This document shows, one piece after another, positions 22,417-28,400 of a stretch of DNA of 64,000 nucleotides. Below the pieces are notes generated by a model. It made no database searches, had not been told where the DNA came from, and saw only the letters and a list, made by a program, of their open reading frames with translations. The translations under genes and the position numbers were made by a program. Position 1 is the first letter of the stretch; each line of letters opens with the position of its first letter. The stretch is from Fistulifera solaris (taxonomy: Eukaryota; Bacillariophyta; Bacillariophyceae; Naviculales; Stauroneidaceae): NCBI GenBank assembly GCA_030295235.1, contig AP026131.1:1364001-1428000 (forward strand). Reading direction: 5' to 3'.

Positions 22417-25400
22417 CTAGTGGTTGTTGTTTGCGTTGCGAATGAGGTTGTGTAAGGGCCGAACAAGTTGGGGGTCTTCACTGATGATGTTGAACTCTTT
22501 CACTACCTGTAGAATATTCTAACGAATCCTATAAGGATCCCTGCAGGTAATAGATAGGTTGACAATGTTTTCACTAAATACGATTGATCCTAAGAGTCTT
22601 TCACAAAAGTAAGCCTGTTGCTCATCATCGTTCATTTCCTTCTCTTGTTGGCTTTTCTCTTCAACAAATAAATTCCTACTCTCTACTTGATACTAATCTT
22701 CCACGTCATCTCTCAATGTCGCATCATCATCAGGTTGTTGCACCTCTCATGACTTTGCTAACAATTCCGTCTTGTGAACTATCGGTGTTCAGTTCCTTGA
22801 CTTCACCTCCAACACACTCCTGCTGGCCGAGGATGATCTTCTCTCCATTGATATTCATTATCCAACCTCTAAACTTGTGATATTTCACTCCAACTAATGA
22901 CTTCGTCATGTAATCTGCCATCATATCATCCGTAGGACAGTATTCAATTTCCACTTCTCCTTGCTTAATCAAATCGGTAATGTAGAAATACTTGATATCG
23001 AAATGTCGTGTCCGCTTCCCAGAACTCTCTTTTCCGTTCTCTTCCAACTTCATCGAACTCTGATTGTCTCCGATAAATGATGTTCGCGTTCACTTTAAAT
23101 CCTTGTGCTTCGATAAATCTTTTCGTCCAAATCACTTTCGAAATAATATCATCAATTGACACTAACTCTGCTTCTGTCGAACTTCTCGTGTTCACTTTTT
23201 GCTTTGTCGACACAGATGCAATTGTCCCTTTTCCGAGCGTCATTGTCGCTCCAGTATGACTTTTCATGTCCTTGTGGACCGCAAACGCCGCATCAACATG
23301 CCATTTAATTGTCTGCGTATCGTCTGCTTCAAGCCTCAAAACATCGTTCTGCGTGGCTTTCAAATAACGCAAAACTCTGATTAACTTCTGCCAATCTGCT
23401 TCATTTGGTTCCTTCACTCGTTGCCAAGAACGCGATAGCTGGCTGAATATCTTGTCTCGCCCTTTTACACAAAAACATTCCTTTCATTACGAATGTGTGA
23501 AATACTTCCGCTTTCTTCTTCGATAACGGGGGCTTTTCTCATCAATCTTGAAAAGCTTTTCGGTCCATGGTCCTTTCACTTTCTCATCCAGTTCTTCCGG
23601 GAAATCTTCGACCATTCCTTTCACGTAATCGACCATATCAACTTTCAATACACCGGGCTCGGAATAATCAAGCGTCATAGCAAGATAATCGTGCTTTTTT
23701 CCTCGAGTCCCTTCGACCTTCTTCACAGATCCATATTTTTCCTGCAACCATTTCAGAAAATCATCATTCACTTTCGGATCAACATGGCTCGACTTCAAAT
23801 CATCAACGTGCCACGTGAATTGTATGCTGCTTTCCATTCACCATCCGATTTGCAACGCACGGATCATACGGGTTTAGCTCAAATCCGATCTCTTGAATAT
23901 CTTTCACGAACTTCTTGTAATAAAGTAATGCCGAGGTCAACATTCCGTATAACGCCTTCAGCATAATCACATATAGCACTTTCTCGCCGTTCTCCCAAAC
24001 CACATAGCTTGCGTAGACTTCGGGAGCTATCTCCGACTAGTACGTCAACTAAAAAATCCACGGATCTTCATGATCACTCTTTCTCCGTTCTTCCTCGGAA
24101 CTTCGGTCTGTACAAATGCGTTTGGTACGTCACTTGTCATATTGTCTCTTCCTTGTTTTGCTTCAATCACTCCTGTAATGAAAATAGATTCCAACATCAC
24201 TGTCGGACTTGCCGCTTCTTCTTTCGGCGTGTACGCTCTCTGAGTGCTTCCGTTTGCACAAGTGCGCGCTTTTGCGGTTCCGTCGCGTTTCTCCGCTAAA
24301 AATATGAGGCTCTCCATAGCCCTTTGCTTCTCGGTGGGTGTCAGATCTTCAACTCTGGTCGGTTCGAATGTCGTTCGGTCATGCAACTGTTTCATTTCAT
24401 CATAGACCGCGTCTTCACCCTTTTTACCAAGTACTTTCAGTCCTTTCTTCAGACTGTAGGTTTGCGCAAACTGCTGCGCTTCCTTTGCTTGCCACTTTTG
24501 TTGATCATACACATGATCATCGCAATCAATATTGCTTCCTCTCGGGTATACTCAGTTGCTTCATGCTCTTGGCGTAATAATATGGCACTGATGTAAGCTA
24601 TACTTGCTCGGCTTCTTCACCGTTCGACCGCTTCGTGTCTTCTGCACATCTTCTTCGTCATTCACGACGTTGTCTTCTTCGACATTTTCTTCTGCTTCCG
24701 GCGATGGTTGGATTGTCCTCTTCGACTTCCTTGACTTCTTCGTCTTCGCTCTCTGCATTATCATCTTCTTCTTCGACGCTTTCTCCATCATTCACGATGT
24801 CATTATCTTCTTCAAAATATTCCTCTTCGGCTGGCTCGTCATAATAGCCGTCGTCTTCTTCATTTGCGACGTCAGTTTCGCCAAGAATTTCTGCTATTTC
24901 ATTCACATCGACGTAATCTTCTTGATCTTCGTCTTCATCGGCTTCAATTTTCGCATTTTCTTGTTCCACGAGTTCTTCTTCGTCGTCTTCTCCGACTTCT
25001 GAATCTTCCTCACGACTCACTCCTGCAATCCAAGCAGCGTCGTAAAGTACAGCTCCACACTTAGTTTCGACTTTCAATCCTTTCGGCATCTGTTCTTTTT
25101 CTGCCATTCTCTCGACTTGTTCGATCACTTGCTCTGTCGCAACTGGTGTAACTCGGTTTCGATTGATCGTTCTTCCGGTGCTCAAATCCATGAGCTCATG
25201 TCCTCCTTGATGATTTGCCAGTGGACGTAAATAGATGCAATCCAAAGTGCGCGGATCTACCGAATTCTTCTGTTTCGGGCTCCGTATGCTTCTGCACGTA
25301 AGTGCCAAACGGGATTTTGCAATGTTTCTCGTAGTCCAATACCTCTTGATGCATAATCATTCTCGGGCTAAAATTCTGAGAGATCCCATTCTTCGATGGA

Positions 25401-28400
25401 AAGTAGTTCAAGTGGCGGGCTGCGTTGAACGCTAAGTGCTTCACCATTAGTCTCGGTAGACGTTTGTATGGGAGTCGATGGTACACCGCCCTGTATCTCT
25501 CTTTCAATACACGATTGTTTCGCTCGGCTTCTGGCACATGCTCTTGTGCTTCCGCAAAATTCATTCTGACATGAAATTCATCTTCAATGTCGTCTTGGAG
25601 TGCACGGTATTCATTATCGCATCGGATCTCAACAATACGAAAGCCTGCCGCATTGTAAATCCGGAATACATCCTTGAGTGCTCCCTTGTAAACTTCGCTT
25701 GTCAAGTTTCCAATCCACTGCACGGTGCGATAGCGGATGTTCAGCGAAATTGTTCCCAAAAAAGTAAAGGCCGTTAACCTTCAACGTATCCATGCATAGG
25801 ATAACTCTGTGCTGCTTCTGATAGATGGCAGCTGGTACCGCTGACGTAATCGGGAGACAACCGGTGCTGGTTTCTTTCGTGTTGTCTTCCCCTTGAGGCT
25901 TCCTATGTCGGGTCCAAAAATCTGTTCTGCGAGCTGTATGTCTTCCGTCGTGACGGGATTGTTCCGAATAATATTCATTCGGATGATTGCTCGGAAATCG
26001 TCCAACGATGGTGTTCCGATTGCGTGATATAAATCTCTTGCTCGCTTCTCTTTCAAATTGACGGTGCGTGTAAAACGCCTTGTTTTCCTCCACGGAATTC
26101 ATGAACTGATACTCAGTGTTCGTTCGCATTGTCGGCTTAAATATATAAAGGTCATTACCATCGTTGACAAACTTCACCGTTTTGTTCGGTAAGTGTACAT
26201 TGAATGCCGATTGCTCGTGATCGATGCGTGATCTTGTAGCGTCTTGCAACTTCTCCAAAGTTGAACACGTTAATGATGCCCTCAGGGCTAAACCAAACTT
26301 CACCCCATCCAGGAAGATTTGCTTTCAAGTTTGACGTCATCATTCCACCATTTGTTGACACATTGATTTGATCGTCAACTTCTCTAATGTCGGTGACTAG
26401 CTTCTCATTGCAGAAAATCGTTGTCGTAGATCCCGTATCCAACAAGATCCAGTCTCGAGTATCCCACTTGCTCTGGAACAATTGCATAGCTTCAATCTGC
26501 GCGCCTGACCATGCCGTGCTGCTTGGTGCTTTCTGCTCTTCTGCATTATTTCCAGCTACGTTCGCATTTGACTGCTCTTCGTTTGCTTTTGCCTTGTTGA
26601 TCGCCCCATTCCGACTTCGGCTTGTCCTTGTATCGACAGTTCGGCGACTTGTGCCCTGCTTTTCCACAGCAGTAACATTTTCCTTCCATTTGCGCAAAGG
26701 ATAATTTAGGGTTTTCTTCTTCTTCGTTCGAATCTTTTTCTTCTTTCTTCTTGTCATTATTCTTCTTGTGCTCTGACGGCTTCTTGTCAAACTTGTGATT
26801 ACTCATCACAGTGACAGCCTGGACGACAGTTTTCGGGTATTGATCATTCCCGAGCGAGTACTGGGTGTTCAATCCACCCAAGATTGACCCGTATTTGCTC
26901 CTGTCCGAGTTGGCAATAATCATGTATGCCATAAACTGCTCGAATACTTCTTCGTCCTTCATCTTGAGTTGTTCCTTCAACTTCGGTAGCACAATTGGAC
27001 CGCCAATCTGCGATTCCAAAACTTCTCTGACTGACTTGAACCTTTTCATGTAGTCGTTGAGACTTTCATTCTCTTTCTGCTTGCATTCGATCATGTTTCG
27101 GAATGCATCGTATATCGTCGTCATCGGGTATCGGCTTTCTTGGTAGCTCATTGCATGCACTTGAATAGCCTTCAATAGTTCAATTGGATTGTCTTCGATC
27201 TTCTCCTTGAAGTCTTTTTCTCTGCTGGAGTTTCTGTTGCAGTGCTAGTGAGCACATCTCCCACATCAATCCATACGCTTTCGTCTTTGTGTTCACGTAA
27301 TGTCCATATCGACGTTGATGCTGCGCTCGTAATCTTCTTTGAATTTCAATTCAAACTCTCTGTTCTCAGCCGCCTTTTTCTCCGCTTCTGTTTGTCTGCT
27401 GTATTTTAGCTTGGGCTCAAACTGTGTGAAATCGATATCTTTTATCTCGTTCAATGCTTTGGCCACATCGGCGCCCGTGATCCCACTGCTTGATGTGGTT
27501 GATCATGAATTCTTTTGTCGTATCAAAGTCTGACGACTGCTTTGCTGACCCAATGTAAAACTTGTAGTCTTTGATGTCTTTCTTCTTGGCGTAGGGCTTC
27601 TCACTGTTGCCTCGTCCCGACTTCGGTCGGTTGGACTGCTGCCCTCTTCCGCCTCCTTTGCCTCTACCTCTTCCACTCATGGCGATTTTAGGCTTTCAGG
27701 ATGTATTGCGGTGATTGTAAACTCAGTTACGTTCTCTTTTGGCTTGGCTGTTGGCTTGTGCTGATGACGTTGCACTTTCGGTGCTTTTCAATTCTTTTTC
27801 CGTGCCTTTTGTGAAAGACTGTTGAACTCTTTCACTACCTGTAGAATATTCTAACGAATCCTATAAGGATCCCTGCAGGTAATAGATAGGTTGACAATGT
27901 TTTCACTAAATACGATTGATCCTAAGAGTCTTTCACAAAAGTAAGCCTGTTGCTCATCATCGTTCATTTCCTTCTCTTGTTGGCTTTTCTCTTCAACAAA
28001 TAAATTCCTACTCTCTACTTGATACTAATCTTCCACGTCATCTCTCAATGTCGCATCATCATCAGGTTGTTGCACCTCTCATGACTTTGCTAACAATTCC
28101 GTCTTGTGAACTATCGGTGTTCAGTTCCTTGACTTCACCTCCAACAGATGAGTTGCACAAGCAGATTGCGACGAACGGATGACGAGACAAGCGGATCTGG
28201 ACCTTCTACTTGGTCCCCGACAAATTGAGGTTGGGTTGCATGATTGAAGCCACCTTCGTGCTCAACAAGCCGATCTTCGTAATCAATTTCCACATTATCG
28301 TTGTCAATGATAAAATTGTGTAGCATGCAACTCACCATAAAGATTCGTTGGATCTTTTGTGACCATATGCCATCTTACTTCGAAAGATACGAAATTTCGT

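Follow-up and report, generated by a model that had tools for sequence, protein, structure and literature searches.

A primer site complementary to its own LTR suggests self-priming in a Ty1/copia lineage of the diatom Fistulifera solaris

We analyzed a stretch of 64,000 nucleotides (nt) of the Fistulifera solaris genome (contig AP026131.1, positions 1,364,001 to 1,428,000; hereafter the window), which carries on its minus strand a retrotransposon bounded by two long terminal repeats (LTRs) (Table 1). The element is a Ty1/copia-type LTR retrotransposon. Its integrase-like frame (25196-25780) lies upstream of the reverse transcriptase (RT) frames (24551-23487) in the element sense, an order also present in its relatives, and TG...CA LTRs with a 5-bp target duplication were seen in the window element and in six further elements with flanks visible on both sides (those of the relative L067 were not visible). 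DNA searches returned the window family as a single copy, plus one 138-bp match at 72%. Most LTR retrotransposons rely on host transfer RNAs (tRNAs) to begin DNA synthesis. For the lineage of this element, the sequence evidence presented here argues that the genomic RNA very probably primes minus-strand DNA synthesis itself, in a Tf1-like manner.

Directly 3′ of the 5′ LTR stands GTCTTTCACAAAAG (27819..27806), and its perfect complement CTTTTGTGAAAGAC lies 108 nt upstream in the same LTR (27941..27928). A 15th pair is formed by the last LTR base, A27820, with T27927 (15 bp in total), and outward extension ends at A27942 versus G27805. This 14-base complement had been the starting point of the original prediction, whose coordinates and distances proved correct, as did its description of a primer site without TGG (the site does not start with TGG). 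A chance match had been considered very unlikely, and three chance tests concur. Exact matches from the junction start extended to no more than 10 nt in 20,000 Markov-simulated LTR/junction pairs, 4 of which reached that length, and 1,000 other 14-mers from within the window element matched its LTR at no more than 11 of 14 positions. When all 2,411 ACA-following sites in the window (both strands) were compared with the preceding 500 nt, 14/14 was found at the window junction only, the next best being 12. The null of internal 14-mers, run on seven elements, had a maximum of 11-12 of 14.

The integrase-like frame led to 14 other places in the genome, eight of which were fetched (L066-L073; 34-44% identity). 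The LTR pairs of six relatives were resolved at once and that of L068 once its other end was included, giving, with the window, eight resolved elements. An own-LTR complement of 14/14 was present in seven of these eight, with loops of 56-142 nt, and the junctions comprised six different sequences: that of the window, TTCATCCGAATCAA in L066 and L070, TTGTTTCCGAGAGA in L067, TTCGCGAAACAACA in L071, TTCACGCAAAAGAA in L072, and CATTAAAACAAAAG in L068 and L073. Compared with the LTRs of other families in a 7 x 7 matrix, the junctions reached 8-10 of 14 at best (L068, resolved later, is outside this matrix and outside the folds and the pretzel test below). In the five families with gap-free pairing (L067 excluded), at least one double change was seen at every one of the 14 pair positions and 70 of 70 cells were Watson-Crick, a count for which the arms were picked by best match, so that the matrix is the fairer control. 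That complementarity was kept while the site sequence differs between families is a compensatory pattern, broken in L067 by a single indel. The RTs of the window element, L066, L067 and L071 formed one clade with a support of 100/100 in a 15-row tree, where the sequence from the window covers 28% of the columns; L068, L072 and L073 were assigned by integrase only, and the RT of L070, which contains a stop, was omitted from the alignment.

The arm is preceded by A in all eight elements. The context before it reads GCTCA in L066, L067, L070, L071 and L072, TTCTCA in L068 and L073, and GGCTTA in the window, giving an initiator-like TCA in seven of the eight and TTA in the window. Judged by reading against the seven-letter initiator (INR) consensus YCAYTYY, as given in passages of PMC3599244, four of the eight elements fit at 7/7 letters, L071 and the window at six, and L066 and L070 at five. 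Because an initiator-like sequence precedes the arm in all eight, we predict from sequence that transcription begins with the A preceding the arm (A27942 in the window) and that the primer corresponds to nt 2-15 of the RNA (2-16 in L071). Opposite the start A, every one of the eight elements has A or G and none has T; the start nucleotide itself may therefore escape being copied into the site, perhaps owing to a cap or a modification. Taken by itself, the A or G at this position is weak evidence, amounting to about six independent cases. Folding of the leaders of seven elements, each reaching from the predicted start to a point 60 nt beyond the junction, gave the primer-site helix in six of them, with mean pair probabilities of 0.78-1.00; this repeats the complementarity and is not independent evidence. 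A potential competing hairpin between GTGAAAGA, at the end of the unique 5′ region (U5), and the site was absent from the minimum-energy fold of the window leader. In the LTRs of L066, L070 and L067, the predicted start lies within a palindrome with arms of 11-12 bp (as determined for L066 and for the 3′ LTR of L067); part of the primer site is thus duplicated in the unique 3′ region (U3), immediately ahead of that start.

These features suggest the following course of events. Transcription would begin at the LTR initiator, and the first ~15 nt of the RNA would fold back across the 108-nt loop onto the site adjoining the LTR. A nuclease, probably the ribonuclease H (RNase H) of the element, would cut the RNA after nt 15, much as RNA cleavage reportedly frees the primer in Tf1, and the freed RNA 3′ end would prime synthesis into U5. 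If the primer is copied during plus-strand strong-stop DNA synthesis, every cycle would renew the site from the mRNA 5′ end, which would keep arm and site in perfect agreement despite the fast drift of both between families. The primer site would then duplicate the 5′ end of the mRNA of the element itself, being renewed per cycle, and would not be a fixed host-tRNA address; the lineage would be freed from host tRNA sequence, its start region would drift fast and the site would record the start to the base. We regard this further step as evenly balanced between true and false.

A chance match in one element, in favor of which only the large number of features that a reader may notice can be cited, has a negligible probability in view of the three tests, and was refuted by the recurrence of the pairing in related elements. 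The paired arms could, on the other hand, be a leader structure involved in packaging, dimerization or the control of translation or transcription, with a cellular RNA serving as primer. Whether or not it served in priming, a helix of 14 bp that closes the leader would be a strong feature of its structure, and in the L066/L070 family and in L067 the arm is also part of the start-spanning palindrome. However, the pairing stops at the LTR/internal junction, where the 3′ end of a primer must lie if the LTR end is to be formed properly and where a leader structure need not lie, and in L068 and L073 it does not extend even one base into the LTR. This position favors priming over a general leader structure, which, with tRNA matches of at most 10/14 (partial set), we consider unlikely.

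Less probable still is that an internal tRNA fragment (half-tRNA) primes and that the LTR match is secondary. Half-tRNA priming is used by Drosophila copia, and two other copia families of this genome carry sites that can pair with the tRNA-Met anticodon arm (14/14 and 13/14, see below). The six lineage sites, however, are all different in sequence, and each still finds its match in the LTR of its element; their best match to 32 tRNA loci (22 distinct) was 9-10 of 14, in a tRNA set that is incomplete (63 of 1,908 candidates scored, most on contigs C57-C61) and in which a control site found tRNA-Met at 14/14. The only exact 14-mer outside the window element, at C25:914568, is not a tRNA gene. 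Half-tRNA priming was rejected for the window lineage on these grounds, within the partial tRNA set. Rfam and ARAGORN yielded no matches in the window.

For controls, we turned to other copia families of the genome. Of 134 matches to RVT_2, 30 were given loci; these fell into eight RT groups, three of which were used (the other five being those of L003, L004, L006, L028 and L029). The L014 family (L078-L080) carries the site GGTTATGAGCCCAG, a 14/14 complement of the tRNA-Met anticodon arm, and the L005 family (L077, L081) the site GGTTACGAGCCCAG, a 13/14 complement of the same arm. At the junction offsets tested, the best own-LTR match of these sites was 9/14 (L079 and L080 were not compared with an LTR). 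From their sequences, both families appear to use half-tRNA-Met priming. In the reading CTGGGCTCGTAACC, the L005 family shows a G at the position of an A in the anticodon. In the L007 family (L074, L075, C2:1547900-1550300), a perfect palindrome, ACGCTTATAAGCGT, is located at the 5′ LTR junction, and no LTR match to the junction exceeded 10/16. Since all three control families were without own-LTR pairing, self-priming would be bound to one lineage rather than general to diatom copia elements.

Several observations weigh against lineage-wide self-priming. All data come from one genome. In L067, the one-base indel leaves 10/14 ungapped matches, which is inside the internal null, and a pair probability of 0.00 in the 5′ leader; its site has one extra base relative to its 3′ LTR arm, a different base is missing from its 5′ LTR arm, although the 3′ LTR arm and the site still pair in a folded duplex that is interrupted by a single bulge. 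The relative L069 yielded no junction, a scan after every ACA giving at most 11/14. The window copy may be inactive, given its short overlapping coding frames. Finally, the two extra duplexes of the Tf1 'pretzel' (self-primer and pretzel structure are described in passages of PMC10085805) were not found. On the downstream side there was no excess of complementarity in seven of seven elements, and in the LTR tail an excess was seen only in L066 (p~0.04) and L070 (p~0.01), which belong to one family; apart from this, nothing spoke for a Tf1-type pretzel, which we rejected.

At 14-15 bp, the pairing of the window lineage is longer than that of the Tf1 self-primer, which is said to span 11 bp. The LTR ends in CA, as in Tf1/sushi elements according to passages of PMC10085805. 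Tf1/sushi elements are Ty3/gypsy (chromovirus) elements, whereas the window lineage is copia by domain order and RT relatives; it works like Tf1, as far as the proposed priming goes, yet is not a Tf1/sushi member. The original prediction had the element prime from its own transcript, and this is supported at the level of sequence by seven of eight elements, six site sequences and the lack of a good match in the partial tRNA set.

Among copia elements, the plant lineage TAR (Houba, Osr-1) offers a parallel: passages of PMC6317226 predict self-priming for these Ty1/copia elements from complementarity of at least 10 bp between the 5′ LTR and a site starting 0-5 bp after it. The copia type is therefore no barrier to self-priming. 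TAR elements are from plants and were predicted by complementarity alone, with initiator position and covariation being additional in the diatom lineage, a comparison made on the published description only. Fungal GalEa copia elements likewise lack a tRNA-type site at the junction, but theirs is a conserved palindromic hairpin for which the authors, in the passages concerned of PMC5445492, found no complementary LTR sequence. It is the L007 family, and not that of the window, that resembles GalEa, with its palindrome at the junction and no matching LTR arm. CoDi elements are likewise Ty1/copia elements of diatoms (Maumus 2009, passages of PMC2806351), and neither a term search of the main text of that paper nor passages of PMC3601003 yielded a statement on diatom primer sites or priming. 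No report of self-priming retrotransposons in diatoms was found in the open-licence papers searched, in agreement with the original prediction as far as diatoms are concerned; copia self-priming as such had already been predicted in plants.

The presence of a putative self-priming copia lineage beside half-tRNA-Met and palindromic-site families makes a switch of priming mode testable within one organism, and the pairing provides base-level predictions of transcription starts in diatom elements. It also points to more than one origin of self-priming outside Tf1/sushi, unless the trait was inherited from an ancestor of the window lineage and plant TAR.

Table 1. Features of the window element (positions in the window)
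Feature	Position	Strand	Basis or remark
5′ LTR	27820..28146	-	327 nt, TGTTGG...CAACA; identical to 3′ LTR
3′ LTR	22488..22814	-	327 nt; identical to 5′ LTR
Target site duplication GATGA (plus strand), 5′ side of element	28147..28151		Read from flanks
Target site duplication GATGA (plus strand), 3′ side of element	22483..22487		Read from flanks
Primer-binding site GTCTTTCACAAAAG (predicted role), adjoins 5′ LTR	27806..27819	-	14/14 complement of 27941-27928
Self-primer arm CTTTTGTGAAAGAC, predicted mRNA nt 2-15	27928..27941	-	Complementarity; mean pair probability 1.00 in folded leader
Initiator-like TTACTTT; predicted start A27942	27938..27944	-	Aligned position TCA in 7 related elements; INR YCAYTYY (PMC3599244)
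GTGAAAGA, U5 end; potential competing 8-bp local hairpin with site nt 2-9	27828..27835	-	Sequence
Gag-like frame, CX2CX4HX4C knuckle	26546..27244	-	Knuckle by eye in translation; no Pfam match at E 0.01
Protease-like frame with DTGS	26155..26802	-	Translation; no Pfam match
Integrase-like frame, query for relatives	25196..25780	-	14 other genome places, E 1e-5 or better; no Pfam match
RT start (RVT_2)	24045..24551	-	PF07727 E 0.0021, 18.1 bits, under curated cut-off 31.6
RT middle part	23803..24036	-	50-56% identity to RTs of L066, L067, L070, L071
RT end part with HVDD	23487..23837	-	33-45% identity to RTs of L066, L067, L070, L071

Despite the identical LTRs, the coding region of the window element (22730-27695, minus strand) is broken into many short overlapping frames. 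In several relatives, single-base indels account for part of the differences between paired LTRs, so that assembly errors are a possible reason for this splitting. The DTGS of the protease-like frame is presumably the protease motif. The RVT_2 cut-off that the window piece did not reach was exceeded by the RTs of L066, L067, L070 and L071.

Profile scans based on the integrase and RT alignments gave no relative among viral contigs and one among genome contigs, L076 (JALZUE010000215.1), which begins at the gag ATG without a 5′ LTR and is uninformative on the site. Its contig is filed under a metagenome-assembled genome of Alteromonadaceae and encodes a copia RT 59% identical to that of the window; it looks like eukaryotic, perhaps algal, contamination. 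The relative L069 lies within a direct repeat (L086-L088, C1:1732900-1743300) whose copies, 99.9% identical and ~8.4 kb apart, measure at least 1.98 kb and run beyond the fetched sequence at both ends. The silicon-transporter family had 23 matches in the genome (best E 3.5e-222), as befits a diatom, and silicon-transporter and tRNA-Met genes were paired on neighboring contig numbers (C5/C6, C15/C16, C23/C24); our guess is that the paired contigs represent two subgenomes.
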